From: a virus
DNA length: 37,051 nucleotides
Direction: 5' to 3' (one strand)
IMG/VR virus record: IMGVR_UViG_3300031111_000022
Location: 1-37,051 of that record
Below the pieces are notes generated by a model that saw only the letters and a list, made by a program, of their open reading frames with translations, had not been told where the DNA came from and searched no databases. Both the position numbers and the translations under genes were made by a program. Shown here piece after piece: positions 4,831-36,614 of the stretch. Position 1 is the stretch's first letter; each line of letters starts with the position of its first letter.

Positions 4831-5525
4831 TTCACCATCACTGTGAGCGAGCCAAGTTCCACGCCGGCCACCACGACAGGCGGCTTCGTCAGCACTGGCG
4901 GGTCAGGCGGCGGTGGCGATAGGGGCTCAGGGAGCGGGTGGGTGTGCTGGTTGAGCCACGACAGGAGCTCTGTCAGCCTCACGGCCTTTGTGTCAGCTCC
5001 ATCGCCGAGCTTGATTTGGGCGCCGGTCACGGTGGCAATGCTGCCGCTCAGGTGCACCGTGGCACCTCCGCTATCAACGCTCACGTCGCCGTTCTTCACT
5101 ACGAGGCTGGAGTCCCCAACCTTGACAGCCAGCTCGCCGGTGTGCTGCTCCGGCACCTGGTACCCGAGATGCAAAACGGACGCGACATAGGGCCTGCCAG
5201 GGTCCCAGTAGTCGAACGCCACACGCACGATGGCTCCCTTAGGGGGCAGGGAGAAAAGCCCCACTCCATCCCCAACGAGCAACTGCGGAAGCGGCACATC
5301 CTCCATCACCGGTGCGTCAGTGTCTTTCGCCCCATCTTTGGTGAGCGCCCGCACGTCTACTGAGTAGCGATGGTGCAAGCCGTCTGCCTTGCCTCCCCCA
5401 GTGCGCACCTTGACCACCTCGGCGTGTATCGGCCACGCCGTCTTGGCCCGAAACGCAGGCACCACGGCCTGGAGCAGCCGGCGGAAAAGCTCCTTGAGCT
5501 CTACGGGCGTCATATTTCCCTGCAT
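4827..5525 (-). CDS. Baseplate assembly protein V, tail spike (Mu gp45-like)
   Basis: A 232-residue spike protein. An OB-fold region is visible at residues about 35-115 (SVDVRAL, LLVGDGVGLFSLPPKGAIVRVAF, RPYVASVLH), followed by a repetitive beta-helix region. Near the C-terminus LNQHTHPLPEP supplies the His-x-His motif that in related spikes coordinates a metal at the membrane-piercing tip. A proline-rich tail follows. The ATG at 5525 has GGAGG 4 bases upstream; a second ATG at 5513 is possible. Confidence 0.85.
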   Translation of the reverse strand: MQGNMTPVELKELFRRLLQAVVPAFRAKTAWPIHAEVVKVRTGGGKADGLHHRYSVDVRALTKDGAKDTDAPVMEDVPLPQLLVGDGVGLFSLPPKGAIVRVAFDYWDPGRPYVASVLHLGYQVPEQHTGELAVKVGDSSLVVKNGDVSVDSGGATVHLSGSIATVTGAQIKLGDGADTKAVRLTELLSWLNQHTHPLPEPLSPPPPDPPVLTKPPVVVAGVELGSLTVMVK

Positions 5526-6274
5526 GTGACCTCCGAGAGTAGCCTCCCAAGCTTGTGCACCGCACGGTCGACCACGCAGATCCTGGCGCCACCAAACAGC
5601 ACCGGGTCGTAGACGATGGCCTTGCTGCTGTGCTGCACGAATGGGTCGTAGACCGCAGTCAGATGGTGCACCCCTTCGCCAGGCGTGAGTGAGATGATAT
5701 TCAGGCCCTCCTCGAAGGTGTGCGTGGTGTCGTCTTGAAACCTCGGAGAAAGCTCCATCGGACCCCAGTACGCCCAGCCCTCCGGCTCGGCGTACAGGTC
5801 CCAGTCAAGCCCCCAAGCATGATCGCACGCTCGCAAGACGTCCAACGCAGCCATGTCGTTGAATGCCATGCTGTGCTTGAGGCTCGCCGACTGCGGAGCG
5901 ACAATGGGCAGGCCCAGTACGTCACCAAGCCAGCCGGCAACCATCGCTGGGGTGCACATACGGAAGGACTGGCTCACCTTGCGCTCCTGCAAGCGACGCA
6001 TGGCGTCCGTTCCGACGATACGAAAGGCATCCGTGTCGTCGACCTCATCCACCTGCCCACCGAAGACAAGGCCCTGGTCGTTGCCGTATCCGGCGAAAAC
6101 AACCAGGTCGTCGTCCCTGGCGACCTCTATCTCATCGCTCCGGAGCGTCAGTTCGACCTGGTCGACGGGGGTCTGCCGGGCCGTAGTCAGCACCATGTCC
6201 TGCAGCGCCAGCACGGTGTGCGAGCCAATGTCCACGGTGACGGCCGGAGCCGAGTATTTGAGGGCATCTTGCAT
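5510..6274 (-). CDS. Baseplate hub / tail protein D-like (Mu gp44-like)
   Basis: A 254-residue hub protein located between a hub-associated protein and the spike, as in Mu. The N-terminal segment (VTVDIGSHTVLALQDMVLTT, then VDQVELTLRSDE) and the middle (DVLGLPIVAP, then DVLRACDHAWGLDWDLYAEP) resemble gp27/gpD-like hub proteins on which the spike sits. It begins with TGATG overlapping the previous stop. It is shorter than many gpD proteins (often 300 or more residues), fitting the compact Mu form. Confidence 0.7.
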   Translation of the reverse strand: MQDALKYSAPAVTVDIGSHTVLALQDMVLTTARQTPVDQVELTLRSDEIEVARDDDLVVFAGYGNDQGLVFGGQVDEVDDTDAFRIVGTDAMRRLQERKVSQSFRMCTPAMVAGWLGDVLGLPIVAPQSASLKHSMAFNDMAALDVLRACDHAWGLDWDLYAEPEGWAYWGPMELSPRFQDDTTHTFEEGLNIISLTPGEGVHHLTAVYDPFVQHSSKAIVYDPVLFGGARICVVDRAVHKLGRLLSEVTCREI

Positions 6275-7074
6275 CAGTTGAACGTCTGCAATGGCAACAG
6301 GTCTGCGGCCAGATTCTTGCCCGGGACTCCTGTGTCATCCTGGGTCGGCGTGTTGTACAGGTCGAAGGCCTTCGCCATGAGGCTCTTCTCCGGTGCGATG
6401 TTGATTGGCCGCGGCGTGTTCTTCCACGATTCCATCAGCTCCCTCGCCTCGCCGCGGGCGACCAGACCCTTGTAGCTCAACCTGGCCGTGCGCAGCTCAG
6501 CCCCCAGCGTCTGGATCGCTGCCTGTACGACGTCCGGGGCAACGGCTCCAGCAAACGCAGCGGCCGCTTTTGCCTCGTCCACTGCGCGCTTAGCCAGCTC
6601 CTGGATGGTGGCCAACTGAGCCCGCCTACGCGCACGCGCAAGCGTCTCTTTCTTAATGATGAGGGGGCGGTGCTCAACAAGCTGAAGTTCGACAACAACT
6701 ACGTCCGTCTGGTTGGTGCCGACGGACCGGAGCTGCTCGACGACGACCTGGCGAATGCCACGCGCAGCCATGTGGTCATTGACGACCCGGTAGACGAACG
6801 GCTCCACTTGGTCGTCTGTGCTCTTGAATATCTGCTCGTAGACGGCCAGCTTCTCCAGGGGCGTAGTGCCGCCAACGTCCGAGTCGTCCGTGAGCTGGAC
6901 TACTACCCGAGCTGAAGCGTCATTGTAGCCCGCAGGGATCTTCGCACTTCCGCTGCCACGATTGAGCTTCAGCTCCTTGAAGTTCACCTTGTTGGACACT
7001 TCGACGTGGGCCTCCACCCCGGGGAGCTCCTCGCCGCCCAGGCGGATCCTGCCATTGTCAATCACCAGGTTCAT
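6274..7074 (-). CDS. Tail/baseplate hub-associated protein after the tape measure
   Basis: A 266-residue protein between the tape measure gene and the hub gene, the place of Mu gp43 (the DNA circularisation protein N family). The N-terminal half is beta-rich (ELPGVEAHVEVSNKVNFKEL, GSGSAKIPAGYNDA) and the second half is helical and Ala-rich with a charged stretch (KKETLARARRRAQLATIQEL). It may bridge tape measure and hub. I do not recognise the exact family by motif; assignment is positional. ATG overlaps the tape measure stop (ATGA), with GGGAGG just upstream. Confidence 0.5.
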   Translation of the reverse strand: MNLVIDNGRIRLGGEELPGVEAHVEVSNKVNFKELKLNRGSGSAKIPAGYNDASARVVVQLTDDSDVGGTTPLEKLAVYEQIFKSTDDQVEPFVYRVVNDHMAARGIRQVVVEQLRSVGTNQTDVVVVELQLVEHRPLIIKKETLARARRRAQLATIQELAKRAVDEAKAAAAFAGAVAPDVVQAAIQTLGAELRTARLSYKGLVARGEARELMESWKNTPRPINIAPEKSLMAKAFDLYNTPTQDDTGVPGKNLAADLLPLQTFN

Positions 7075-9260
7075 CCGACCTCCCTGGTGAGCCGGCGCAG
7101 GTCCTCCACGAACCGCTCGCCGTCCTGCACGTTGTTCATCTGTACGTGGAGGTTCTCAATGTGGATCTTGCGGCCATCTTCCCGGCTGCCTGTGTTCAGG
7201 GCCATGTTGACGGCAGGGGCTGCAGGGGCTGCCGCCTGAAACGGCATCTGCTGCGGGATGGTTGCCGCCCGGCGGACGTACGCCATGACGCTCCCGATGC
7301 CGTCCTCGACGGAGCGGCTGTTCTTGAGGCCCCCCGCCCAGGTGGCCCAGAACGCCCGGCCTGACTGAGTAAGGTTCGACAGCGGTCCGGTATGAGCATC
7401 CGAAAACGGTAGATACTCGCGGACATTCGCCAGCATGTCCTGGACAGCCTCGACTGGCGCCATGGCCGCCGACTTGATGCCATCAACAAACGCGTTGACC
7501 AGGCCAACACCGGACGCCTTGAACTCTCCCCACAAGCCGTCCAGCCAACTCATCGCTGCGTCAATTGCATCGTTGAAGGCGTCCGGGACACCAAGCACGC
7601 CGTCGATGATGGCATTGACGACGGCGAGAGACCCATCCTCGAGCTGAGCCCACCAGTCACCCATCGTGGTCACCAGGCCGTCTGTGGCGCCGAGAATCCA
7701 GTCGTATGCTGCACTGAATGCGGCCCGGACCGTGTCCCAGTGCTTTACAAGCAGGTAGATGCCGGCGCCTAAGGCCACCACCCCACCAATGACCCAGGTC
7801 ATAGGGTTGGCCAGCAGTGCAGCGGTCCAGGCCCAGGTGGCAGTTGCAGCCGCGCCCAGTCCAGCGACCAGGCCCGGCATTGCGCCGACCAGCGCAGACC
7901 CAATCCACGCACCGAGCTGCAGTACCAGCCCGCCAGCGAATGCCAGCACTCGGCCCAGGTGGCCGATGGCCTGGATGCCGTAGCCAGCAAACATGGTGAT
8001 GGCTGCACCGGCCTGAAGAAGTGGAGCCATGATCGTCAGCCCAATGGTGCCGATGCCGAACAGGAGCATGCCTGTCTCAAGGAGCTGCGGGTGCGTGTCG
8101 GCAAAACCTGCGAAGGCAGTCAGTGCTGACATGATCGTCGGGACAAGCGCCTCGATGACCGGCATGAGCTTCTCGGCGAGCGTCATCTTCACCCGGTTGA
8201 CCCGGTTACTGATGATGTCCCATTTCGCGCTCGTCGTGTTCTCCATCGCCTCCATACCGGCCTGCATCGCGCCGGTGGAGTTGACGACCTCGCCCATCAT
8301 GTGGCGCAACTCGTCCGTCTGGCCCATCAGCAGTGCGACAGCCCGAACGCCCTCTTCGCCGAAGGCCTTCTGCACCTGCTGCTTGACGTCGTCCGACATG
8401 TCGCCGAAGTCGCCCAGGGCTCCGCGCATGTTGGCCAAGGTGCCGATCAGGTCAATGCCTCCCGAGCGCGTCCTGGAAATGCCAAAGCCGAGCTGGTCTG
8501 CCGCCTTCAGAATGTTGCGCATCGTAGCCGACAGTGCCGTGCCGGCCATCGAACCCTGCAGGCCAGCCGTGTTCAGCGCGCCAACGACGGTGTAGAGCTC
8601 TGCGAGCTCCATCCGATACTGTTTTGCGGATGGGATCCCGTACTTCAGCCCCTCGTTGAGCTGGCCGAGGTCCCTGATTTGGAAGGCTTGTTGGGTCTTG
8701 GTCGTCATGTCGCCCAGCCGCTGCATCTCCTGCGACACGTCCCGGCCCTTGTCGCCGAGGTTGTTGTACATCGTGGCAAGCAAGTTTGCGGCGGTCGCGT
8801 TGTCTCCCATCGTGGCCGTGGCCAACGCCAGGGCCGCTTCGGTGCCGGCGATTGCTTGGGTGTCGGCCAAGCCGGCCGAGGCCATCAGGTAGCTCGCCCC
8901 GATGAACTTGTCGGCCGCCTGGCGGTGCTTGTCGGCCCACGCAAGAGCGGCCCCCTGTGCTGCCTCCATGGACTGCTCGACGCCTCCCATCGTGGACGCC
9001 ATCACGGTCGACAGCTCGGCCGATCGGTCCTCCAGGCTCATCAGGGGGCCCATCATGGACCCCAGCGCACCGCGGGCTCGCCGTGCGAAGTCATCAACCA
9101 GCACGGCAGAGACACCCATCCGCTGACCGAACTCCGTGACCTTCTTGCCCATCTCGACAGTCTTCTGCAGCTTTGACATGGCTCCGGTCATCCGGCCAGC
9201 CGGCCCGGAGAGCTTGTCGATCAGCGTTACGATTGCCGCGAGTTTGAGCGTCTGGCTCAC
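7071..9260 (-). CDS. Tail tape measure protein
   Basis: A 729-residue protein, the longest in the phage. Residues about 75-260 form a TP901-type tape measure core (GAALAWADKH, MYNNLGDKGRDVSQEMQRLGDM, GTALSATMRNIL), followed by several long hydrophobic segments between about 385 and 515 that could cross a membrane during DNA injection. The start is GTG, overlapping the frameshifted chaperone stop. About 730 residues would predict a contractile tail near 100 nm under the usual 1.5 angstrom per residue rule, comparable to Mu. Confidence 0.9.
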   Translation of the reverse strand: MSQTLKLAAIVTLIDKLSGPAGRMTGAMSKLQKTVEMGKKVTEFGQRMGVSAVLVDDFARRARGALGSMMGPLMSLEDRSAELSTVMASTMGGVEQSMEAAQGAALAWADKHRQAADKFIGASYLMASAGLADTQAIAGTEAALALATATMGDNATAANLLATMYNNLGDKGRDVSQEMQRLGDMTTKTQQAFQIRDLGQLNEGLKYGIPSAKQYRMELAELYTVVGALNTAGLQGSMAGTALSATMRNILKAADQLGFGISRTRSGGIDLIGTLANMRGALGDFGDMSDDVKQQVQKAFGEEGVRAVALLMGQTDELRHMMGEVVNSTGAMQAGMEAMENTTSAKWDIISNRVNRVKMTLAEKLMPVIEALVPTIMSALTAFAGFADTHPQLLETGMLLFGIGTIGLTIMAPLLQAGAAITMFAGYGIQAIGHLGRVLAFAGGLVLQLGAWIGSALVGAMPGLVAGLGAAATATWAWTAALLANPMTWVIGGVVALGAGIYLLVKHWDTVRAAFSAAYDWILGATDGLVTTMGDWWAQLEDGSLAVVNAIIDGVLGVPDAFNDAIDAAMSWLDGLWGEFKASGVGLVNAFVDGIKSAAMAPVEAVQDMLANVREYLPFSDAHTGPLSNLTQSGRAFWATWAGGLKNSRSVEDGIGSVMAYVRRAATIPQQMPFQAAAPAAPAVNMALNTGSREDGRKIHIENLHVQMNNVQDGERFVEDLRRLTREVG

Positions 9261-13401: not shown

Positions 13402-13872
13402 CTACTTGTTGCGCTTGCCGGCCTTCTTCGCCGCGCCCTTCTTCGCCGCGCCCTTCTTCGGCTGAGCCTTCTTCGGCTGAGCCTTTCTTGGCTCGGGCTT
13501 CGGCTCGGGCTTCGGCTCGGGCTTCGGCTCGGGCTTCGGCTCGGGCTTCGGCTCGGGCTTCGGCTCGGGCTTCGGCTCGGGCTTCGGCTCGGGCTTCGGC
13601 TCGCGCTTCGGCTCGCGCTTCGGCTCGGGCTTCGGCTCGGGCTTCGGCTCGGGCTTCGGCTTGGGCTTCGGCTTGGGCTTCGGCTCGGGATCGGCAAAGA
13701 CCAGTTCAACCGTCAACTCTGGCTCACGCTCAAGCTGCTCGAGCTGCGCGAGCGAGAACCGATCCGCCGGGTGGACGACCAGGTGCGACGGGTGAAAGAC
13801 TCCGCCCCGCCAGAAGCCACGCGGTGAGTTCGCTGTGACGTGCACCTCTTCGAGTACAAGTTCGTTTTCCAT
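13402..13872 (-). CDS. gp35-like protein with Lys-Pro-Glu-Pro repeat tail
   Basis: A 156-residue protein. Residues about 16-58 ([13 protein letters not shown], then [18 protein letters not shown]) fit the short gp35 family that lies between capsid and gp36 in Mu-like phages. From about residue 62 the protein becomes a low-complexity rod of [12 protein letters not shown] units, then a Lys/Ala-rich tail ([18 protein letters not shown]) resembling histone H1 tails. The gp35 core is normally around 60-100 residues, so the tail is an expansion. Start ATG 13872 has AGGAGG 5 bases upstream. Confidence 0.7.
13490..13689. repeat. 12-bp tandem repeat array encoding KPEP units
   Basis: About sixteen tandem copies of GGCTCGGGCTTC (plus strand), with occasional G-to-C or C-to-T changes producing KREP or KPKP variants. 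The 12-bp unit keeps the reading frame, so copy number can change without disrupting the protein. On the plus strand the same DNA gives an Ala/Arg/Ser repeat that is not a real gene. Confidence 0.9.
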
Positions 13873-13945
13873 TGCTGCCTCCTGCAATCGGCTTCCAATG
13901 CGTTAGAACCCCGTTTGAAACCGTTAGAACGGGGCCGGTCCGACC

Positions 13946-27084: not shown

Positions 27085-27648
27085 CTATAGCAGTTTCCCT
27101 CTCGCCTGGTCGGCGACTCTGTCCTTTGGTTGGATGTACGCCCGTACCCTGGGGCCGAGAGCCCTGTCGACACGGCCGGCAACGAACACGGCCAGCACCG
27201 ACGGGTGCCTGTTGTCGTCCTTGGGCACACCGTCCTCGAGGAAGGCGATGCGACCTCGGACGAACCGGAGTTCGGTGGCCCGCATCATGTACTCGTGCCA
27301 CCACGCCGCATCGGTTCTGGGCGGAACCAGGAGCACCCACGTCTCATCCCCGGCAGCAGCGCCCTCGTAGGCCATCCGCGCAAAGCGCTTTGCCACTTTC
27401 CCATAGGGCGGGTTGCACCACACGGTCTCGCCACGGAAGTCATTCCCGAAGGCGGAGCTGGCCGGAGAACAGTAGCGCTCAAGCTTGTGGTTGTGCTGGT
27501 TGGCGCAGGCATCGATGGTGAAGCCGAACTCCTCGTGCAGCGCCTGGAAGAAGTCGTCCGGAGTCTCCCAGTCGTCCCGAGAGCCGCTGCTCCGTCCAGC
27601 GTCTCTGCTGCGACGGGCGTCCTCGATGTCGATGAGAGACCTACGCAT
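27085..27648 (-). CDS. Phage-type DNA N6-adenine methyltransferase
   Basis: A 187-residue protein of the phage Dam family. DDWETPDDFF (residues 25-34), FTIDACAN (43-50) and the catalytic VWCNPPYG (77-84) are present, followed by the conserved W-V-L-L-V-P-P-R-T-D segment and the R-G-R-I-A-F motif. It likely modifies phage DNA against host restriction or marks regulatory sites. The ATG immediately follows a hairpin that contains its G-rich ribosome binding site. Confidence 0.88.
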   Translation of the reverse strand: MRRSLIDIEDARRSRDAGRSSGSRDDWETPDDFFQALHEEFGFTIDACANQHNHKLERYCSPASSAFGNDFRGETVWCNPPYGKVAKRFARMAYEGAAAGDETWVLLVPPRTDAAWWHEYMMRATELRFVRGRIAFLEDGVPKDDNRHPSVLAVFVAGRVDRALGPRVRAYIQPKDRVADQARGKLL

Positions 27649-28103: not shown

Positions 28104-28490
28104 TCAACCGTTCACGAGGAAGCGAACGGCGGTCTCCGTTCCCTGGTCCGCCGAGATGAAGATCCTGACGTACATCCCGCGAAGGGACTTCACATCCGGC
28201 AGGTACGTAAAGCCGTTCTGGCTGTTGCCGATCAGGTTGCGGGCACTCCCTGCCTCCAAGTACAGATACTCCCAGCCGTCCGTCTCGGTCGCCTTCAGCT
28301 CGTCGATGCCGTGGTCGTCGCCCGTCGGCATGTCATCCGCGGCATAGACCTCCAGCTTCACGTACGAGTTGGTGTCCATCCCAGACACGTGGATTCCGAG
28401 ACCCACAGTATCCTGCGGGATGTAGATGGCCTTCGTGCGGTTGTCGCCAGCGGCGACGGTGGCCTTCACGGCCTTGATCCTGGTGCTCAT
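28104..28490 (-). CDS. Unknown beta-rich protein after GemA
   Basis: A 128-residue protein with mostly short beta-type segments (KAIYIPQDTVGLGIHVSGM, SYVKLEVYAADDMP, RGMYVRIFISADQG). It reads more like a virion surface or jelly-roll protein than a regulator, although it lies in the middle-gene region. AGGAGG stands just upstream of the ATG and the gap to GemA is one base. Family unknown. Confidence 0.5.
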   Translation of the reverse strand: MSTRIKAVKATVAAGDNRTKAIYIPQDTVGLGIHVSGMDTNSYVKLEVYAADDMPTGDDHGIDELKATETDGWEYLYLEAGSARNLIGNSQNGFTYLPDVKSLRGMYVRIFISADQGTETAVRFLVNG

Positions 28491-28491
28491 C

Positions 28492-28938
28492 CTACTCCTC
28501 CTCGGCCGCCTCGGCCGACGAGCTCCGTGCCCGGTAGCCCCTGGCGGTCATCTTCTTCAGTGACTCGATGATGATGCGCGCCTCGTCACGTGTCTGCGGC
28601 CAGAACCGGTTCCCGAGTTGCCTGCGGCAGAACCCCGCCTGGCGCTTCGTGTCGGTCATCCCGACCTCGTGGAAGAGGTACCGGATGTAGCCCTGCTGTT
28701 TCTCCGTGATCGCATCGGCCAGCTCCACGTCCAGGTCGGCAGGTCTCTTCCGCGGCTTCTTCGACTTGAAGCCGAGTTCGCAGAGGCGCTCCATGACCCG
28801 CTCGAAACCATCGAAGTCCAGCCCCTTCGCGGACCGAACGCCCGCCTGAACATAGAGAATGTCGCGATAGGTCTCATCGTCCAGGGAGAGCTGCTTCTTG
28901 GCGATATGCAGCAGAGCCATGTGCCGGCGCTCCAGCAT
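28492..28938 (-). CDS. gemA: GemA-like protein (Mu gp16, DUF1018)
   Basis: A 148-residue protein with the family opening (LLHIAKKQLSLDDETYRDIL), then TEKQQGYIRYLFHEVG and a C-terminal Q-T-R-D-E-A-R-x-I-I-E-S-L-K segment. This is the gp16/GemA family of transposable phages, reported in Mu to influence host gene expression and DNA gyrase. Usually followed by Mor in Mu; here it is not. The start may be ATG 28938 or the internal ATG at 28920. Confidence 0.88.
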   Translation of the reverse strand: MLERRHMALLHIAKKQLSLDDETYRDILYVQAGVRSAKGLDFDGFERVMERLCELGFKSKKPRKRPADLDVELADAITEKQQGYIRYLFHEVGMTDTKRQAGFCRRQLGNRFWPQTRDEARIIIESLKKMTARGYRARSSSAEAAEEE

Positions 28939-28939
28939 C

Positions 28940-29992
28940 TCAGACCCCCTTGGCCAGCTCGGGGATCCCGGGCTGGTACTCGTGGCCGGCCAGCACGAAC
29001 GGCCAGGTCACGCGGCCGGCCAAAGGGCCGTCCTCGGGGCGGCCGTCCAGGCCGATCTCCCGGACCCGGTAGATGCGGGCCCGGTTGGTGGTCAGTCGTT
29101 CCGTCGGCGGAACCCACCGGAACGTGGTCCGCTGCGCCCGGTAGTAGGTGACTCCGTTGCGCTTCGTGCTCCAGCCGTCGGCACCGAACCGGTACAGGCC
29201 CCGCCGGCACGGGTCGCCCGTGCGCGGGTCGTAGAGCTGGAACTCGTCGTCCACCTTGAGCAGAAAGACGATGTGCGACGGGTACTCGATGATGTTGACG
29301 TGGCCGAGCAGGTGCGCCAGGCCGTAGCACCGCAGAAACAGGTCACGGTCCTTCACCCAACGGTGCGTGAACACCGGCTCGCAGTACTCGGCATAGCCGG
29401 AGTGCACCTTGCCCTTGTGCTCCTGCCCGCCCACCGGATACCGCAGGATGTACTCCTGCCAGCGCCCGGTGCGCCACGTGTAGAAACCGTTCATGTTGAG
29501 CCAGTAGCCCATGACGAGGGCCACGCATGTCGAGCACACCCAGCCGTTGGTGTAGGGCTGCGTGAAACCTTCCTTCACGGCCCTGCTCATGGGCTGCGCC
29601 CCTTTCCCCCAGCCGTTTGCGACGACCCACTGGCCGTCCTTCTTGTGCTGGACGCCGGGACCGTAGACGATGCCACGGCCGCCGAAGCTCTTGATGGCCA
29701 GGTCGAGGACCCGCTGCATCTTCTCCTCGCGGGCCGTCTGCTGCACGACGAGCTGGTGGTCCGGGGTGATGTACCGATAGCCGACGCGGTTGACCAGGTC
29801 GAGCATGTCAACCGTGTTGGTGCCAACGATTCCGTCCGGGGTCAGACCATGGTCCTCCTGGAAGGTGCGCACGACGGCGTCCATGTGCTCGTCGAAGAGC
29901 GTTCTGGGGGTGGGCATCCAGTACCCGGCCGCCCCCAGGCGGACAGCGATGCGAGACACGTCGATTGCGTTGTCGCGAAACTTCAGGTTCAT
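28940..29992 (-). CDS. Endolysin-like protein: peptidoglycan-binding plus NlpC/P60-like domain
   Basis: A 350-residue protein. Residues about 8-65 form a peptidoglycan-binding repeat (VSRIAVRLGAAGYW, then AVVRTFQEDHGLTPDGIVG). Residues about 85-250 look like a cysteine peptidase of the NlpC/P60 superfamily: YGPGVQ, then NGWVCSTCVALVMGYWL (Cys153/Cys156), and HVNIIEYPSHIVFLLK (His231/His240). The C-terminal 100 residues are unassigned. No signal peptide. It begins with ATGA overlapping the previous stop. Its placement in the early cluster rather than with holin and spanins is unusual. Confidence 0.65.
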   Translation of the reverse strand: MNLKFRDNAIDVSRIAVRLGAAGYWMPTPRTLFDEHMDAVVRTFQEDHGLTPDGIVGTNTVDMLDLVNRVGYRYITPDHQLVVQQTAREEKMQRVLDLAIKSFGGRGIVYGPGVQHKKDGQWVVANGWGKGAQPMSRAVKEGFTQPYTNGWVCSTCVALVMGYWLNMNGFYTWRTGRWQEYILRYPVGGQEHKGKVHSGYAEYCEPVFTHRWVKDRDLFLRCYGLAHLLGHVNIIEYPSHIVFLLKVDDEFQLYDPRTGDPCRRGLYRFGADGWSTKRNGVTYYRAQRTTFRWVPPTERLTTNRARIYRVREIGLDGRPEDGPLAGRVTWPFVLAGHEYQPGIPELAKGV

Positions 29993-30252
29993 GCTTGCTC
30001 CTTCACTGCCCAGCGCCTGCCGTGGCGCTCTTCGAGCTCCTCTCGGCGCGTGCGCAACAGCTTGGCGCAGCGACGACATACCCGCAGGCCAGGCTGCGAC
30101 GTGGAGAGCTGGACGCATCGCATCGGTCCGGCAACCTGGTCGCACTCTCGCACGTAGGTGTCCTCGTCCAGCGGGACAATCAGGTGCAATGTGGTGCCGG
30201 TCTCTGTGAGGCCCCATCCAAAAAGCACCGCTCCCGTTGACTTCGCCTTCAT
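29989..30252 (-). CDS. Small Cys-containing early protein
   Basis: An 87-residue protein starting MKAKSTGAVLFGWG. It has a beta-type first half (TTLHLIVPLDEDTYV) and a possible zinc site formed by REC, RC and VCRRCAKLL (the last a CxxC). A basic C-terminus follows. TGATG overlap with the preceding gene. Function unknown; one of several tiny metal-site proteins in this block. Confidence 0.6.
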   Translation of the reverse strand: MKAKSTGAVLFGWGLTETGTTLHLIVPLDEDTYVRECDQVAGPMRCVQLSTSQPGLRVCRRCAKLLRTRREELEERHGRRWAVKEQA

Positions 30253-30506
30253 CACGCCCCCCGCTTCCGCTTCGCCACGGGGGCCCGCTGGGCCTCACGC
30301 AGGCGACGCTTCGCCATGCCCTTGAACTCGGTGCCACGCAGCCGCTCGACGAGCATCTTCAGGGCCTTCACGCCCTGCTTCTTCCCGTCCCGGTCGCCGG
30401 CTGCCGCAGCCGCCTGGGCCCCGAGGGACACCTTGACCACGACCGTGTACATCTCCTCGAGCTGTCGGCGGCTCTGCTCCTTCCGTTTCCGTCGAATCGT
30501 CCACAT
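30252..30506 (-). CDS. Small basic early protein
   Basis: An 84-residue, strongly basic protein (MWTIRRKRKEQSRRQLEEMY at the start and AKRRLREAQRAPVAKRKRGA at the end), with a central segment rich in Ala and Gly. ATG 30506 is chosen because it sits in a TGATG overlap with the preceding gene and has AGGAGG 6 bases upstream; the longer frame from 30701 would overlap that gene entirely. It may bind nucleic acid. Confidence 0.6.
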   Translation of the reverse strand: MWTIRRKRKEQSRRQLEEMYTVVVKVSLGAQAAAAAGDRDGKKQGVKALKMLVERLRGTEFKGMAKRRLREAQRAPVAKRKRGA

Positions 30507-30733
30507 CAGAGAGACCTCCTGCATGTCTGGCAATAGGAGGTCCACCTGGTCGTGTAGAGCCATCTCATGGTCGACCGTCCCGCGCCCCTGTACTTCCCAA
30601 TCACTGAGCTGCGCTCGCTGAACATTCGGAGCCACACCGTTGCGCCGCACATGACACAGGTTTTCGGCGTCCACGCAAACCGGCGCCTCCACCGGATCCA
30701 CTCACCTGCCTTCTTCCAGCGGCCACCAGCCAT
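30506..30733 (-). CDS. Small zinc-ribbon early protein, 75 residues
   Basis: A 75-residue protein starting MAGGRWKKAGEWIRWRRRF, with two CxxC pairs (TCVMCG near residue 26 and YCQTC near 68) that would form a zinc ribbon. TGATG overlap with the preceding gene and GAGGAGG upstream of the ATG support translation. Highly basic and aromatic. Function unknown. Confidence 0.6.
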   Translation of the reverse strand: MAGGRWKKAGEWIRWRRRFAWTPKTCVMCGATVWLRMFSERSSVIGKYRGAGRSTMRWLYTTRWTSYCQTCRRSL

Positions 30734-30882
30734 CAGTCCTCCTCGACGCCGAAGCGCTCGGCACATTTGGGGCAGACCCAGCCGCATCCGTACTCGTCGA
30801 ACGTCCCGCACTTGAGACAGAGCGGCGCGCCGCAGTCCGGGCAGCATGTCGCAGCCTTCTTTCCGCACACGGAACAAGTCAT
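30733..30882 (-). CDS. Tiny zinc-ribbon protein, 49 residues
   Basis: A 49-residue protein made almost entirely of metal-binding pairs: CSVCGKK, CCPDCGAPLCLKC and CPKCAERFG. This arrangement of four CxxC units suits two zinc ions. ATG 30882 overlaps the preceding stop (ATGA) and is preceded by GGGGGG. Rubredoxin-like or treble-clef folds are possible; role unknown. Confidence 0.65.
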   Translation of the reverse strand: MTCSVCGKKAATCCPDCGAPLCLKCGTFDEYGCGWVCPKCAERFGVEED

Positions 30883-31049
30883 CGGGTCCCCCCATGTCCG
30901 GTGCGCCTGGCGCACTCCGCACATACCCAGCCGGTCTCGCCAAAGCGGGAGTCGCCGACACGGGCCCTGGTGGCGCACTGGCCACAGATGGAGCGGCCGC
31001 AGATGCGACACGCCCTGTCAGGCCCATGCGGATGCGTGCAATTGCTCAC
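30879..31049 (-). CDS. Tiny zinc-ribbon protein, 56 residues
   Basis: A 56-residue protein (opening SNCTHPHGPDRACRICG after the initiator) with CRICGRSICGQC and WVCAEC, giving a two-zinc treble-clef-like pattern. Start is GTG 31049, with GGAGG 5 bases upstream. It shares design with the next two genes, suggesting duplication and divergence. Confidence 0.6.
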   Translation of the reverse strand: MSNCTHPHGPDRACRICGRSICGQCATRARVGDSRFGETGWVCAECARRTGHGGTR

Positions 31050-31091
31050 GGGAACCTCCGTCTCACCGGCACAGCCGGCCCAGGGCGGCCA

Positions 31092-31107
31092 CCGAGCCGA
31101 AGCTCGG
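31092..31107 (-). promoter_or_regulatory. cUUCGg-type RNA hairpin between small early genes
   Basis: On the minus-strand message CCGAGC and GCTCGG pair around TTCG, the exceptionally stable cUUCGg tetraloop. It lies in the 80-base gap between two zinc-ribbon genes, the largest gap in this block. No T-run follows, so it looks like an RNA stability or processing element and not a terminator. Confidence 0.55.
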
Positions 31108-31129
31108 GAGCCCCCTCGGCATGCCCCGC

Positions 31130-31327
31130 CTACCTCTTCTGGTCCTCCGCCAACGTGACGAAGAGCTCGAGGTGTGTCAGGCAGACCACGCAGACTGCGT
31201 CGAGGCAGACATCCGGGCCGTCCTGGTCGTCGGCCACGCTGAACAGCACCCATTCGCCGCAGCACGGGCAGTACGTGCCCTTGCGTTGCGCCGCCGCATC
31301 CATCCTGATTTCGCTTGCGTTCCTCAT
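31130..31327 (-). CDS. Small zinc-ribbon protein after Gam, 65 residues
   Basis: A 65-residue protein with CPCCGEW near residue 20 and CVVC near 46, typical of a short zinc ribbon. ATG 31327 overlaps the Gam stop (ATGA). Function unknown; first of the run of Cys-rich early genes. Confidence 0.65.
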   Translation of the reverse strand: MRNASEIRMDAAAQRKGTYCPCCGEWVLFSVADDQDGPDVCLDAVCVVCLTHLELFVTLAEDQKR

Positions 31328-31827
31328 GGGTTCACCACCTCGTGCTTCTCAGACTCAACGAAGAACACGTCGAGCTGCACCACAGTGGCGCCCACCTGCT
31401 CAAGGGTCTCCTCGGGGTATTCCCGGAGCTTCGTCTTGTCCACGCGCTCGGACACCTTGACGCAGTCGTCCATGCCCTTCTTGCGCAGGAGCTCGATCAC
31501 CTCCTTCGGCTTCTTCGTCAGTTTGAGCTGGGCACTGCGGCGCCAGCCTATGGTGCCGTGGTTGAGCTTGCGGCTGCGCTTGCCGCGAAACCCGTCCTGG
31601 TTCTTCTCCGCAAACACCTCCAGCGACTTCAAGACCTTGTCCAGCTCCTCCTGGACGCCCGCCGTCAGCCTCTTGTGCTCCTCCTTGATGGCGGCGATTC
31701 TCGCCGTCATCTGCTCGTTCACCTCGTCCAGGTTGCGCTGGAGCTCGCCGGCGCGCATCAGCAGCTCGTCGACCTGCTTCCAGGTCAGCACCTGGTCCTC
31801 GCTGCGCATTCTCGTTGCCTTGGCCAT
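31324..31827 (-). CDS. gam: Gam-like host nuclease inhibitor
   Basis: A 167-residue protein of the Mu Gam family. It has a long N-terminal coiled coil (ELLMRAGELQRNLDEVNEQM), then the conserved G-x-x-x-x-R-S-R-K-L-N-H-G-T-I-G-W-R region and the KKPKEVIELLRKKGMDDCVK stretch, a characteristic helical motif. Gam is Ku-like and protects linear double-stranded ends from exonuclease, important for replicating transposable phage DNA. AGGAGG precedes ATG. Confidence 0.9.
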   Translation of the reverse strand: MAKATRMRSEDQVLTWKQVDELLMRAGELQRNLDEVNEQMTARIAAIKEEHKRLTAGVQEELDKVLKSLEVFAEKNQDGFRGKRSRKLNHGTIGWRRSAQLKLTKKPKEVIELLRKKGMDDCVKVSERVDKTKLREYPEETLEQVGATVVQLDVFFVESEKHEVVNP

Positions 31828-31836
31828 GGGATCCTC

Positions 31837-32376
31837 CTATCCTCTTCTTATTGCCTCCGCCGCCGCTTCCTCTTCGCTGAGGACCGACTGCGGGAGCAGA
31901 CTCACTGCATCCGACAGCGCCGCCTGGGCGGCCGCCAAGCAATCCCTTGCGGCGCTGTCGTCCAACTGCTCTTCCTTCTCTCCTGCCAGCCTCAGTGCCG
32001 CCGCTGCCTGCCCGATCCGCAGGAGCCGCTTGATACGCAGCGCCCGCTCCGCCACTCCGTCGTCCACCTCGGGCGCGAACTGGGTGCACTCAAGTCCCTC
32101 CAACCAGGCCTCCGGAACCACCAGCGGCGCACCCTCGTCCTCCATCTTGTTGCCGCTGTACGCCAGCTCATCACGGCAATTCAGCATGAACCACGTGCCC
32201 CGGGTGAAGCACTCGTCCTCGCCGTCGTCCACGACGATGACACGTCCGTCTGCCCGCCATGCCACAATCGGACTCGCCGACAGCTTCGTGCCATCCAACA
32301 GGATCTCCACCCCACGCGTGCGAATCAGGTTTCTCAAGTCGTCCAGATTGACTCTCGTCGGCTCTACGTTCTGCAT
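31837..32376 (-). CDS. Unknown early protein between B and Gam
   Basis: A 179-residue protein. N-terminal half is beta-like (GVEILLDGTKLSASPIVAWR, GRVIVVDDGEDECF), C-terminal half is acidic and helical (ERALRIKRLLRIGQAAAALR, SEEEAAAEAI). No family recognised. AGGAGG lies before the ATG. Confidence 0.55.
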   Translation of the reverse strand: MQNVEPTRVNLDDLRNLIRTRGVEILLDGTKLSASPIVAWRADGRVIVVDDGEDECFTRGTWFMLNCRDELAYSGNKMEDEGAPLVVPEAWLEGLECTQFAPEVDDGVAERALRIKRLLRIGQAAAALRLAGEKEEQLDDSAARDCLAAAQAALSDAVSLLPQSVLSEEEAAAEAIRRG

Positions 32377-32415
32377 GTCAAACCTCCTGCAAAGCCCGCC
32401 GTAAAGCGGTGTAAA

Positions 32416-32431
32416 GGCGCTTCAAAGCGCC
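32416..32431 (-). terminator. Small hairpin at the end of the B gene
   Basis: GGCGCTT (32416-32422) and AAGCGCC (32425-32431) form a 7-bp stem overlapping the B stop codon. A TTTA follows on the minus strand. It may attenuate transcription from the transposition genes into the Gam region, but the T-run is weak. Confidence 0.3.
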
Positions 32432-33345
32432 GCTCCAATGATGTGTTTCGCTGCCGCCTTCGCCTGGCCAAGCCCGACCTTGCCATCGTGGGCCGTCGTG
32501 CTCTCGGCCAGCCTCCAGCACTTCTCGATCAGCCGGTAGGCACCAGGCATGGTCCCCATGGTCTCCGTCAGCCAAGCCAACGTCCTGGCGTCAGGGTCGC
32601 CACCCATCGACTCCACGAACGCCCGCACGTCGTCGATGCTGGGACCCGCGTCGATGTAGCGCTGGATACCGATGCGGCTGTACATCTGTGCGTAGACGCT
32701 CTGGCCGGCCCCGAACATCCGGTCGTAGAGCATGGTGTGGCCACAGAGGACAAGCCCGACCTCGGCCTCGTCATGGATGCGGCGCAGAATCTCCGCCGCC
32801 TTGAAGCCCAGGTGCTGGGCCTCGTCGAGAATGATGCAGTGACCCGTGCCCTCCAAGGCCTCCACCAGGTCCGCCACAGCCAGGTAGAGCGGGTCGTTCT
32901 GACCCAGCTTCGCCCGCAGCAGCTTGCGCAGCAGGCCTGCAACCACCGGCCGCTCCTTGGCTGCGCTCGGGTCGAGGAGCACGTACGTCACGCCGGTGTG
33001 GCTGGCGGCGTAGTGCTTGAGCGCAGCCGTCTTCCCGGTACCAGGCTCCCCGTACACCAGCGCGATGTCCCGGTTTACGTGGGCGAACTCGGCGCACGTG
33101 AGCACCGTGTTGGCCGCAGCAGTCGGCACGAACGCCTTCTTGCGCGCCTGGGCCGTTCGCATCGCCTCGAGGTCGAGATAGCGGGTCACCTGCTCGCCCA
33201 TCTTCTCGTTGTCCCCGCGGTAGCTGCCCTTGAGAAACTGACTGACCGTCGCCGCAGACATACCCAGCGCCCGGGCCACCGAGCTCTGCGTCACGCCCCC
33301 GTCGATGTGGCGCTTCAGCGCCGCCCTCACTTCATTCAATTGCAT
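32422..33345 (-). CDS. B: Transposition target-selection ATPase (Mu B-like)
   Basis: A 307-residue AAA+ ATPase, close to the 312 residues of MuB. An N-terminal HTH (SSVARALGMSAATVSQFLKG, residues about 21-40) precedes Walker A (GEPGTGKT, 99-106) and Walker B (CIILDEAQHL, 170-179), with a sensor-type VLCGHT. MuB binds target DNA and stimulates the transposase. ATG 33345 is chosen because AGGAGG lies 6 bases upstream and the gene then follows the transposase stop by one base. Confidence 0.92.
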   Translation of the reverse strand: MQLNEVRAALKRHIDGGVTQSSVARALGMSAATVSQFLKGSYRGDNEKMGEQVTRYLDLEAMRTAQARKKAFVPTAAANTVLTCAEFAHVNRDIALVYGEPGTGKTAALKHYAASHTGVTYVLLDPSAAKERPVVAGLLRKLLRAKLGQNDPLYLAVADLVEALEGTGHCIILDEAQHLGFKAAEILRRIHDEAEVGLVLCGHTMLYDRMFGAGQSVYAQMYSRIGIQRYIDAGPSIDDVRAFVESMGGDPDARTLAWLTETMGTMPGAYRLIEKCWRLAESTTAHDGKVGLGQAKAAAKHIIGAAL

Positions 33346-33346
33346 G

Positions 33347-35308
33347 TCAGACCTCCTCTGCAAGTCGCCGGCGTTCAAGGTCGGCCCTCAAGGCCGCCAT
33401 GAACGTCTGCTCGTCAATCTCCTCTTCCGCTTCCTCGGACTGCTTTCGCACCAGCAGCTCGTGCAGCTCGGCCGTCTCTTCCGGCGCCGGCCGCTTCCTC
33501 TCTGCCGTAGGGTCCAAGTGGTCAAACTGAGTGCGCACCAGCTCCGTCACGGCCGGGTCGTCGAAGTCCTGCTCAACAACCTCGGGCTTGGCGGCCAGCT
33601 CCACGCTCCGCTTCGAGATACCGGTGCCCTTCTTGAACTGCTCACGCTGGTCCTTCAACAGCTTGCGGAGCCGCTTCACCTGGCGTTCGTGCTCTTCGTA
33701 CCCCTCGATGTCGAGGAAGCCGACCCGGCCCCGCAGCTCCGCCCTGACGATGAAGTTGCCGGCCAGGTCGTAACAGTCCACGAAGCCGAGGTCGTCCGGG
33801 TCGTACTTCACCAGCACTTTCTCGCCCTTGCGGATGGCGACCTCCTCGTGCCAGTAGTACTGCTTCGCAAACCGGATGCCCTGCTTGCCAACCTTCGCCA
33901 CGCGATGGGGCAGGAAGAGCAGGCGGAGGGCGCTTGGGGCGATGCGGCGAATCGAGTTGCTCTCGAACCAACGGCGCCAGACTGCGTCCGGGGTCTCACC
34001 GCCCATCGAGTCGCCGTGATGGGGACGGGTGGCGTATGCCTCGAGGCCGTCGCGCACGATGGCCTCGAAGGTCTCGTAGTCCAGCAGCCGGCCGGCCTTG
34101 ATGTCCCCGTCGACATTCTCGGGGCGATTGGCCGTGCAGTTGCCTCGGTAGCCAGGCAGCAGCCGCAGCACGTCGTCCTGGATGGTCTTGAACATCCGCT
34201 CCACCGGCTTCGCCCGGGGATTCCCGGGGATGGCGAAGATGACTCGCTCCAGGCCGATGTGCTTGTATGTCCCGGTCAGCTCCTCCTGCTCGTCCTGCGT
34301 GAGCCGGCGGAACTTCTTGTACCCGCCGACCAGCATCTTGCTGCTGTAGTCAGCGCCGTTGTCGATGTAGAGCGAGGTGGGCAGCCCGAACCGCTCGACG
34401 CCACGCTTGAGCGCGGTGTTGATGGTGCGGCTGCTCGGGACCTCGCAGATGTCCCACCCCATCGGCCGGCGACTCCGGACGTCCATCCACATCGTCAGCC
34501 AGTAGAAAGTGGGCTTGCCCGTCTCCGGGTGCTTGACGGCCACGTCGAACTGCATGTGGTCGCCGCACCACACCTGGTTGGGCACAAGGGTCGAGTAGTC
34601 GCGCAGCCGGGTGAGCATCCAGACTTGCTCGAATGCTCCCCGGCCCTCGCGATAGAACTCCCGGGTCGCCGCGGGTATGGACTCAAGGAAACGGTGCATT
34701 GTGCGAGTGCTGGGCAGAGTCCAGCACTGCTTCTTGGCCTCGCGGCGAACCCGGGAAATACAGGAGGTAGCAGTAGGTTGGTTGGGCGAGAGATACAGAT
34801 CGGCCAGGAGCTTCTTCGCCTCCTGGGCCCACACCGTTTCCTTCCTCCCGGTTTGGGGGCTATCACTGTGCGCCTTCTTGGCGCCCTTGAACTTCTTCCG
34901 CCAACGGCCGAGCGTCTTGACCGACACGTCCAGCCCGCTGGCATTGATGTACTCACGCATGAGGGACTTCTGCGAGCCCTTCTGGCCCATGGCCCACTTC
35001 TCGAACGACTGGACAGCCGCCAGCCGGCGGGCGTCCTCATCGCCGGCCCGCTCTGCTGCTACGTCGTGCAAATCCTGCCGGCGCTCACGCTCGGCGAGCT
35101 CCCGCCCCTCGATGGCCACAGCAACCTTGGAGCGGATCGGGTCCGGAAGGTCAGACAGGGTGAACGTCGGCTGGGCCCAGCCGCCGCCGGCAGGCTTCAC
35201 CGACCCGGCCGCAGGCCACCCCTCCTTCTTGCTGCGAAACCGCAGGTAGCTGTAGGACAGCTCGCCGAGTTCGCACAGCTCATGCAAGGAGTAGGCCCGG
35301 TCCGTCAC
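33347..35308 (-). CDS. A: DDE transposase A (Mu A-like)
   Basis: A 653-residue transposase (MuA is 663). The N-terminus has the MuA-type DNA-binding pattern (KKEGWPAAGSVKPAGGGW, then F-T-L-S-D-L-P-D-P-I-R), followed by end-binding helical domains. The RNase H-like core carries Asp250 (VWCGDHMQFD), Asp316 (LYIDNGADY) and Glu370 (AKPVERMFKT), with spacings of 66 and 54 very close to those of MuA. A beta-barrel and basic C-terminus follow. Start is GTG in a TAGTG overlap with a good SD (GAGGTGG). It catalyses integration and replicative transposition. Confidence 0.95.
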   Translation of the reverse strand: MTDRAYSLHELCELGELSYSYLRFRSKKEGWPAAGSVKPAGGGWAQPTFTLSDLPDPIRSKVAVAIEGRELAERERRQDLHDVAAERAGDEDARRLAAVQSFEKWAMGQKGSQKSLMREYINASGLDVSVKTLGRWRKKFKGAKKAHSDSPQTGRKETVWAQEAKKLLADLYLSPNQPTATSCISRVRREAKKQCWTLPSTRTMHRFLESIPAATREFYREGRGAFEQVWMLTRLRDYSTLVPNQVWCGDHMQFDVAVKHPETGKPTFYWLTMWMDVRSRRPMGWDICEVPSSRTINTALKRGVERFGLPTSLYIDNGADYSSKMLVGGYKKFRRLTQDEQEELTGTYKHIGLERVIFAIPGNPRAKPVERMFKTIQDDVLRLLPGYRGNCTANRPENVDGDIKAGRLLDYETFEAIVRDGLEAYATRPHHGDSMGGETPDAVWRRWFESNSIRRIAPSALRLLFLPHRVAKVGKQGIRFAKQYYWHEEVAIRKGEKVLVKYDPDDLGFVDCYDLAGNFIVRAELRGRVGFLDIEGYEEHERQVKRLRKLLKDQREQFKKGTGISKRSVELAAKPEVVEQDFDDPAVTELVRTQFDHLDPTAERKRPAPEETAELHELLVRKQSEEAEEEIDEQTFMAALRADLERRRLAEEV

Positions 35309-35754
35309 TACTTTCCACCTCTCGACGACAGGAGCTTCTCCAGCATGCGGCGCTCGCTGCGGAGGCGCTTCTCTTCCATGTCCATGCGCGCAATCTCGCT
35401 TCGCATGTAAGTCTCTTCTGTGACCATTCGGTAGCCGGCCGACTCCACGAGCAGGCGGAGCGGAGCCGGGTCATGGAGCACAGCAACCAGGTCGGGCAGG
35501 TACTCCGCCGGCAACCGGTGCGTCCGCTTCGACTCCGCCGTCCACGTATCCAGGGTCGTCTTCGCTACTGATGCGCCCAGGCGAGCCGACAGCGCGTCAG
35601 CAATCTCGTCCCGCGAAAGCCGACAATCGGCGATGGCCGACTTGATGGTGCGGCGCAGTCGGACGCCGAGCCCATGTCCGTGACCTGCTTCTTCCGTGGA
35701 CACCCTTGTCCGCCTGGCGGCCTCAAAGAGGTCCATCTGCTGACTAGCGGCCAT
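35308..35754 (-). CDS. Small HTH-type early protein between Ner and A
   Basis: A 148-residue protein starting MAASQQMDLFEAARRTR, with a central helical domain (TIKSAIADCRLSRDEIADAL, SVAKTTLDTWTAESKRTHRL, LPDLVAVLHDPAPLRLLVESAG) resembling an unusual HTH found upstream of transposases in many Mu-like phages. The C-terminal 40 residues form a charged coiled coil. Start is ATG 35754, with GGAGGG about 5 bases upstream and overlapping the Ner gene end by 11 bases; a longer frame from 35859 is unlikely. Confidence 0.65.
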   Translation of the reverse strand: MAASQQMDLFEAARRTRVSTEEAGHGHGLGVRLRRTIKSAIADCRLSRDEIADALSARLGASVAKTTLDTWTAESKRTHRLPAEYLPDLVAVLHDPAPLRLLVESAGYRMVTEETYMRSEIARMDMEEKRLRSERRMLEKLLSSRGGK

Positions 35755-35998
35755 CGTCGCCCTCCTGGCCTTCCGGCCACAGCTCGGACACGGGGCATCC
35801 GACGACCTCTCCGATGCGATCCCGAATCCTGCGATTGTAGCGCTTGCCGGCGACAACAAAGCTCACAAGCGTTACTGAGTATCCGAGCTCCCTGGCAAGC
35901 CTGGAAAGGCTATACCCCTTGGCCTCCAGCATGTACCGAATCTCCAGGGCCCCGACTGCACCGTCTATTCCTTTAATGAACATAGGCGTTGTTCGCAT
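35744..35998 (-). CDS. ner: Ner-like transcriptional regulator
   Basis: An 84-residue DNA-binding protein with the Ner pattern (SLSRLARELGYSVTLVSFVV, then RIRDRIGEVVGCPVSELWPE). The closing I-G-x-x-x-G-x-x-x-x-x-L-W-P is diagnostic. In Mu, Ner turns down early and repressor transcription. ATG 35998 has AGGAGG 5 bases upstream. It is the first gene of the early operon. Confidence 0.9.
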   Translation of the reverse strand: MRTTPMFIKGIDGAVGALEIRYMLEAKGYSLSRLARELGYSVTLVSFVVAGKRYNRRIRDRIGEVVGCPVSELWPEGQEGDDGR

Positions 35999-36100
35999 GT
36001 GAACCTCCTGCTAGTCTACAAACGACGGCATCGGGTAGGGCAGAGCCGCGGGGGCGGCCTTGCCGTGTGAGCCTCAGGGATTTCACTAGCGTGAACACCA

Positions 36101-36130
36101 TTGACGGGCTCCCAGCTGCCGACGTGTATA
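36101..36130 (+). promoter_or_regulatory. Candidate repressor promoter
   Basis: TTGACG (36101-36106) is followed after 18 bases by TGTATA (36125-36130); TATATT (36127-36132) is an alternative -10. The -10 lies inside the TGTA-N6-TACA dyad and overlaps the opposing early promoter, so repressor binding would affect both directions. Confidence 0.45.
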
Positions 36131-36139
36131 TTTGTACAC
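36124..36139. promoter_or_regulatory. Operator-like dyad GTGTA-N6-TACAC
   Basis: An inverted repeat with 5-base arms (36124-36128, 36135-36139) at the point where the leftward and rightward promoters overlap, 15 bases before the repressor GTG. The half-site TTTGTACA recalls the perfect TTGTACA palindrome at 23.87 kb, though the spacing between half-sites differs by two bases. Confidence 0.5.
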
Positions 36140-36160
36140 AGGGGGCCAGGACTGTGTCAA
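36131..36160 (-). promoter_or_regulatory. Candidate leftward early promoter
   Basis: On the minus strand a perfect TTGACA (36155-36160) is followed after 18 bases by TACAAA (36131-36136). It would produce an untranslated leader of about 125 bases before ner and drive the transposition genes. Its -10 overlaps the operator-like dyad. Confidence 0.5.
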
Positions 36161-36534
36161 CCAAAAAGCACATGTTAGACGAAAAATTCTTCCTGAGGCT
36201 TCGCGCTGCTTTAGATGACGCCGGAATTCAGGTGGCAGACATAGCTCGGCGCACCGAGTTCAGCAGGGGCGCAGTGTACAAGTACCTGGGAGGTCAAGAC
36301 CCTCCGCTTTCATTTGTTGTGGCGTTTTGCCAAGAGGCGCAAGTTGACATCGGATGGCTGACAGTCGGCGCACCACCGCCAATGTCGCCTGACACTCAGA
36401 CCGGATCGCTATGCAGGACGATTGTTGACTTTGTGGAAGCCAACGGGCCAGTGGTCGACAAGCTGATTGCCAAACTCATCTCCGAAGAAGTGTACGTCCA
36501 CATCGCAGACATCATTGAGGATACTCCGCAGTAG
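36154..36534 (+). CDS. CI-like phage repressor (XRE-family HTH)
   Basis: A 126-residue protein, oriented opposite to the lytic genes as for the Mu c repressor. The N-terminal HTH (IQVADIARRTEFSRGAVYKY) is followed by L-S-F-V-V-A-F-C-Q-E-A-Q-V-D-I-G-W-L-T-V-G, the common C-terminal helix of XRE repressors, and a short oligomerisation-type helical tail (GPVVDKLIAKLISEEVYVHI). There is no peptidase domain. GTG 36154 has a G-rich SD about 10 bases upstream; ATG 36172 is the alternative. It should maintain lysogeny by binding the dyad upstream. Confidence 0.8.
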   Translation: MSTKKHMLDEKFFLRLRAALDDAGIQVADIARRTEFSRGAVYKYLGGQDPPLSFVVAFCQEAQVDIGWLTVGAPPPMSPDTQTGSLCRTIVDFVEANGPVVDKLIAKLISEEVYVHIADIIEDTPQ

Positions 36535-36595
36535 TTGTGCAGCATGGCACTCTAGTTTGCCTTATGCTCCAATTGCCCCGTTTCGCATCTACAAC

Positions 36596-36614
36596 GGGAG
36601 GGGGGGGGGAGGGG
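36596..36614 (+). other. G-tract with quadruplex potential
   Basis: Runs of 3, 10 and 4 guanines separated by single adenines lie 62 bases after the repressor stop. The tract could form a G-quadruplex on the plus strand or pause polymerase. It may also simply be a homopolymer prone to sequencing error. Confidence 0.5.

Follow-up and report, generated by a model that had tools for sequence, protein, structure and literature searches.

Small cysteine-rich open reading frames between gam and gemA in the early operon of a Mu-like transposable phage

The virus record IMGVR_UViG_3300031111_000022 (IMG/VR) is a 37,051-base contig of a Mu-like transposable phage; this whole stretch was analysed and is referred to as the window. 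The subject of this report is a run of five small cysteine-rich open reading frames (ORFs), A to E, that is located in the early operon and interrupted by one small basic ORF. The operon is encoded on the minus strand and comprises, in this order, a small helix-turn-helix (HTH) protein at the Ner position, MuA, MuB, an ORF of 179 amino acids (aa), Gam, the A-E stretch, a lysin-like gene and GemA. The MuA gene carries Mu transposase domains, the MuB gene encodes an AAA ATPase with a weak match to the MuB C-terminus, and the Pfam HTH matches of the protein in the Ner position are below the cut-off.

The block that follows the MuA and MuB homologues has the gene order gam, A, B, C, D, the basic ORF, E, lysin, gemA, all on the minus strand. 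The gam gene (31324..31827) encodes a Mu Gam-like host-nuclease inhibitor (PF07352, E 9.3e-33), and its stop codon overlaps the start of ORF A (31130..31327, 65 aa). A has CxxC pairs at residues 20 and 46, is zinc-ribbon-like by motif and has no family match above the cut-off. ORF B (30879..31049, 56 aa) starts with GTG and contains seven cysteines, three CxxC pairs and two histidines near the first cysteine. ORF C (30733..30882, 49 aa) contains ten cysteines and four CxxC pairs. ORF D (30506..30733, 75 aa, net charge +15) has CxxC at residues 26 and 68. The basic protein (30252..30506, 84 aa, net charge +17), located between D and E, is free of cysteine. ORF E (29989..30252, 87 aa) has one CxxC (residue 59) as well as Cys37 and Cys46. 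It overlaps the gene of a peptidoglycan-binding lysin-like protein (28940..29992; PF01471, E 5.6e-11; best match to PHROG endolysins 9.8e-07). GemA (28492..28938; PF06252, E 1.5e-16) forms the far border of this variable early block.

A first-pass annotation had placed five genes of 49-87 residues here, interrupted by a single small basic protein, and all of them are present on the minus strand (65, 56, 49, 75 and 87 residues). It had also described successive genes as overlapping by ATGA or TGATG. Of the seven junctions between gam and the lysin gene, six overlap in this way, with ATGA at gam/A, B/C and E/lysin and TGATG at C/D, D/basic and basic/E. The exception is the A-B junction, where the genes are separated by an 80-nt spacer (31050-31129). 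The assignment to the early operon agrees with the position of the genes after those of MuA and MuB, and the genes are mostly coupled. From co-orientation and coupling, we infer that A-E are transcribed early together with the transposition genes. A consensus scan of 28400-36600 found no sigma-70-type promoter (0.8 expected).

Cysteine makes up 4.6-20.4% of the residues in A-E (20% in C), compared to 0-2.2% in the other listed ORFs of the window. CxxC pairs, previously attributed to all five, are found twice in A, three times in B, four times in C and twice in D, but only once in E, where the two further cysteines are spread. The cysteine spacing of the run is typical of zinc sites, and zinc binding is predicted.

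To compare the run with chance, chains of non-overlapping ORFs of 40-110 aa with at least two CxxC were counted by script. The window chain is 3 by script and 4 when the starts of the first-pass annotation are used. Shuffling the 1339-base region 2000 times gave a chain of 0 in 1860 cases, 1 in 135 and 2 in 5, and shuffling the 4.9-kb early stretch 300 times gave 0 in 255, 1 in 42 and 2 in 3; a chain of 3 was reached in none. Among 99 other, related loci, the longest chain is 0 in 32, 1 in 65 and 2 in 2. When only the stretch from MuB to GemA is considered and any start giving 40-110 aa is accepted, the window has 4 such ORFs, while 87 loci have 0 (66 loci), 1 (19) or 2 (2); the remaining 12 of the 99 loci, with either MuB or GemA missing from the matches on the plus strand, were left out of both MuB-GemA counts. 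By these counts, about a fifth of the operons have one small CxxC ORF, and a run of four is thus unusual. The run is longer than expected by chance (0 of 2000 shuffles) and longer than in any of the 99 related loci, although one counting rule, given below, blunts the contrast.

B and C are paralogues. They are 39% identical over 38 positions (BLASTP, 2e-06) with six cysteines in register, and 45% identical in another comparison. The proposed origin of the repeated zinc proteins by duplication therefore stands for B and C only; A, D and E match neither one another nor B/C at E < 0.5. Both B and C contain CxxC-x4-CxxC-x(4-22)-CxxC. C has an additional first CxxC, in place of which B has Cys4 with His6 and His8. 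The motif CxxC-x4-CxxC-x(n)-CxxC is found only in B and C in a set of 33,312 stop-to-stop ORFs of at least 25 aa from the window and loci L001-L101, scanned except for L001 and L002, which are copies of this region of the window. When the residues of C were shuffled 20000 times, the regular spacing of its four CxxC recurred twice. This cysteine spacing of B and C is the one known from two-zinc cross-brace fingers. The five proteins had been described as zinc ribbons, which for A and D agrees with the motif alone; the spacing in B and C is cross-brace-like instead.

The ligand spacing of C resembles that of FYVE and B-box fingers, as does that of B with a histidine possibly replacing one cysteine. 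Sub-threshold Pfam matches of B are to FYVE (E 0.0029) and B-box (E 0.017). Neither gathering cut-off is reached (FYVE, PF01363: B 18.1 bits versus 27.8; B-box, PF00643: B 15.7 and C 15.5 bits versus 24.1). The best structural matches of the C model, which is confident in one of five models, are FYVE-type or related, with Z 5.6 (2zet_C) followed by 5.2 for three FYVE entries; Z below 8 may reflect a common arrangement and implies no common function. The FYVE-type likeness of the C model is suggestive only. The AlphaFold2 model of A is poor, its predicted local distance difference test score of 55 being too low for use.

In Mu-like phages, the semi-essential early (SEE) region is, according to a published account, rather long and poorly conserved, encoding small proteins of uncharacterised function (PMC8705779). 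The window stretch shares its features, being early, extending from the transposition genes to gemA and around gam, and consisting of small ORFs without assigned function. It differs in having many CxxC ORFs in a row and a lysin-like gene inside the block. MuA, MuB, Gam and GemA follow in the same order in phage D108 (A, B, kil, 6-9, gam, 11-14, gemA, mor; locus L111), where 4490-4711 and 7431-7613 encode the cysteine-rich early hypothetical proteins gp6 (73 aa, nine cysteines, two CxxC) and gp13 (60 aa, eight cysteines, four CxxC). The gap between Gam and GemA ranges from negative (reversed order or overlap) to 2757 bases in 42 loci with both genes found and is about 2.4 kb in the window; given this range and the differing contents, the block is variable. 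In L010, the nearest relative found (MuB 41-43% and terminase 58% identical), gam (5927-6427) is followed by an ORF with a peptidoglycan-binding-like start (by eye) and then GemA (7595-8005), with no small CxxC ORF in the gam-GemA interval. In L099, the ORFs between MuB and GemA include one that is subtilisin-like and one for an ATPase whose N-terminus carries a cysteine cluster (named by eye from the translations). The subtilisin-like protease frame (4830-5867) belongs to a Mu-like prophage in a metagenome-assembled genome of Tepidanaerobacteraceae.

D108 gp13, located between gam and gemA, shows the four-CxxC pattern of C, and so does Mu_13 of Mu by alignment. Like C, Mu/D108 gp13 (Mup13, PHROG 5584, hypothetical protein) is small and reads CxxC-x(n)-CxxC-x4-CxxC-x(n)-CxxC. 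C shares all four CxxC, the second and third of them separated by x4, and B the last three, a likeness to gp13 and not membership: B and C have no match to the PHROG 5584 profile at E <= 1, while the positive control D108 gp13 scores 2.7e-44. D108 also has a single gene, whereas the window has two adjacent copies and three other cysteine-rich ORFs. B/C and gp13 are thus alike and occupy the same interval, but a common descent is unproven. No paper on the function of Mu gp13 or gp6 was found among the open-access papers searched, by title or opening of the abstract. A gp13 relative (47%) in Klebsiella phage Kpn BU9 is encoded beside an exonuclease gene and near a gene for a single-stranded-DNA-annealing protein.

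With a probability of roughly 0.6, the run represents variable SEE-region content of a Mu-like transposable phage, namely small zinc-stabilised accessory proteins that would bind host factors. Small early genes of uncharacterised function are usual in Mu-like phages, but so many cysteine-rich ones in a row are uncommon. The best reading is ordinary SEE content in which small zinc proteins are unusually enriched and one pair arose by tandem duplication. A-E would be made early, from the transcript shared with the transposition genes A and B. Of their products, A and D would fold as small zinc ribbons, and the tandem duplicates B and C as two-zinc cross-brace modules. During takeover or in the lysogen, the products may serve as small adaptors that bind protein (or nucleic acid) and adjust host factors. 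A role in takeover is plausible but unproven, and its best support is general. SEE genes of Mu-like phages are described as largely without assigned function and as influencing host survival (PMC3325207, PMC3820752). Wild-type E. coli infected with a MuBam phage was about 20% viable, and 100% viable when the phage lacked the Mu semi-essential region (PMC3325207). This effect does not single out cysteine-rich genes because kil is also in the deleted region.

Several observations weigh against this reading. No convincing homologue of A-E was found by tblastn in INPHARED, in the 99 related loci or in viral-contig scans with C and B/C, and selection on the cysteines is therefore unproven. Only one of the five models of C with its cross-brace is confident (80.8 versus 49-53 in the others), and Foldseek gave no match at E <= 0.001 in either PDB or the viral library. 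The likeness to gp13 is weak at the sequence level: C and gp13 share 11 of 34 residues (E 0.001 for the single pair, over cysteine-rich stretches), B and gp13 give E 0.20, and hhalign of B/C against gp13 yields a probability of 25% (E 0.00075, 20 columns). When the longest ORF under 120 aa is counted instead, the MuB-GemA stretch has 2 CxxC ORFs in the window and 0 (70 loci), 1 (16) or 2 (1) in the 87 loci. Both MuB-GemA counts are rough because the loci are partly redundant, several being the same contig or near-identical prophages that were not collapsed, and because GemA was placed by an iterated profile. The codon bias of A-E is weak. An antisense frame outscores the own frame for A (9.2 versus 8.7 bits) and D (6.9 versus -0.4), although this antisense frame is also positive for clear genes such as lysin (56.7). 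The composition-aware codon score of B is -0.32 per codon, no better than that of its other frames, and that of D is -0.04 versus 0.08 in another frame. Such low scores would be expected for proteins rich in Cys, Trp and Arg, yet they are counted here among the adverse points.

The codon evidence bears on the alternative that part of the run is untranslated, the CxxC pairs being a by-product of G+C-rich sequence and D perhaps the N-terminal extension of a longer basic ORF (starting at GTG 30701) read in the wrong frame. In synonymous codon choice, all six ORFs score higher in their own frame than in either other frame of that strand, strongly so for the basic ORF and weakly for A-E, with 27.6 bits for the basic ORF, 8.7 for A, 3.7 for B, 4.8 for C, -0.4 for D (over 64 codons) and 5.8 for E; the best other same-strand frame reaches 2.4 bits for B and -6.2 bits for D. 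This weak bias, together with the failure of B and D in the composition-aware score and a basic frame that is open upstream to 30701, favours the alternative. The upstream extension of that frame, however, scores -5.7 bits. Ranked against 292 ATG, GTG and TTG codons of the early region, the Shine-Dalgarno sites of the starts of A, B, C, D, the basic ORF and E are in the best 10, 4.5, 8, 1.4, 2.7 and 6%, respectively, so that D has the best site of the six, compared to the best 14% for the upstream GTG. Furthermore, no shuffle of the region gave a chain of three, and the paralogy of B and C is hard to explain without coding. We consider this alternative unlikely. A-E and the basic ORF are real ORFs and probably genes, and the atypical codon use is read as that of recently acquired accessory genes, with the weakest codon support for B and D.

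Two further alternatives accept the proteins but assign them other roles. The cysteine-rich ORFs, C above all, could buffer or scavenge metal in the manner of metallothioneins, without binding a partner. This would suit the 20% cysteine of C and a weak Foldseek viral match named prokaryotic metallothionein (rank 11, E 0.83). The regular spacing of C, rare in shuffles of its residues, and the last three CxxC shared with B and D108 gp13 suggest a defined fold instead, and metal storage appears very improbable. Alternatively, one or more of the proteins could be RNA-binding regulators like Com of Mu, in which a small zinc finger binds an mRNA hairpin and opens translation of the next gene. A might act in this way on a stable stem-loop with a UUCG loop and no U tract (31068..31130, minus strand) that is located between A and B, just upstream of the GTG-started B. 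Com of D108 is, like A, a small phage protein with two CxxC (62 aa, residues 6 and 26, versus 65 aa, residues 20 and 46). The stem-loop (-54.3 kcal/mol over 101 nt, z -2.36) is, however, only moderately beyond shuffles, 7 of 200 being equally good. Zn_ribbon_Com (PF10122) has no match in A-E at E <= 1, while D108 Com matches it at 2.7e-09, and BLASTP of Com against the early proteins gives none to A, only a weak match to C (29% over 31, E 0.36) and a four-residue match to MuB. D108 com also differs in position, being located near the right end, where it overlaps mom. Com membership of A-E was rejected on the absent profile match and the missing BLASTP match to A, and Com-like regulation by one or more of these proteins is improbable.

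A bolder extension of the SEE interpretation is that B, C and Mu gp13 represent one very diverged class of two-zinc cross-brace phage proteins with a fixed place between gam and gemA, here duplicated and joined by further zinc proteins as a multi-part early set of host-binding adaptors; this is doubtful. If B, C and Mu gp13 share one job, the function of a class of tiny early phage proteins would be accessible via the laboratory phage Mu. If they do not, the run would be a further case of unrelated small zinc proteins gathering in the SEE region.

The searches for relatives covered sets that may omit records very near the window, so that the absences are incomplete. Tblastn in phages gave no match at E <= 1 for A, E and D, two records for C (best E 0.7) and eight Caulobacter phage records for B (best E 0.04, the match lying within a hypothetical protein of 387 aa). 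No relative was recovered when viral contigs were scanned with MuB alone, ORF C, MuA alone or B/C. The basic ORF and the 179-aa ORF (31837-32376) have no match in the 99 loci. A scan with the MuB alignment returned the L010 contig again and nothing further, and a genome scan with the terminase alignment returned three loci at 38-40%. MuB had four and three matches at E <= 1e-40 in two draws of 398 genomes each, which overlapped; the best (38%) is in the centre genome itself. In the PDB sequence search, A has no match at E <= 5 and the best match of C is 0.031; matches of B to PRDM9 zinc-finger arrays (best 0.00072) were taken as Cys/His composition. A link to anti-phage defence was rejected, as the single PADLOC match of ten proteins at E <= 0.1, between A and a restriction enzyme (0.015, 49 residues), was judged to be chance. 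No description of such a run of genes was found among the open-access papers searched, by title or opening of the abstract. The zinc finger described for KS10 is of the DksA/TraR type (PMC2628397).

The A-B spacer has no terminator-like site, and no known RNA element was found by Rfam in 28400-33400. A 19-codon frame, read by eye, runs inside the stem-loop from an ATG at about 31122 to a TGA at about 31063. It could encode a leader peptide or serve in the coupling of A to B.

The lysin-like gene (28940-29992) sits within the early block between gam and gemA, whereas the endolysin gene of D108 is located after C, outside the block. The C-terminal part of the lysin-like protein has no Pfam match, and Cys, His and Asp residues seen by eye could form a cysteine-peptidase site. 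Downstream of GemA, an adenine methyltransferase-like gene (27085-27648) matches TIGR01712 at 1.3e-19, with 70.3 bits versus a curated cut-off of 97.05; a relative is encoded at 8568-9434 of L010. Elsewhere in the window, the protein encoded at 13402-13887 combines a Mu-like FluMu_N domain with a long tail of Glu-Pro-Lys-Pro repeats.

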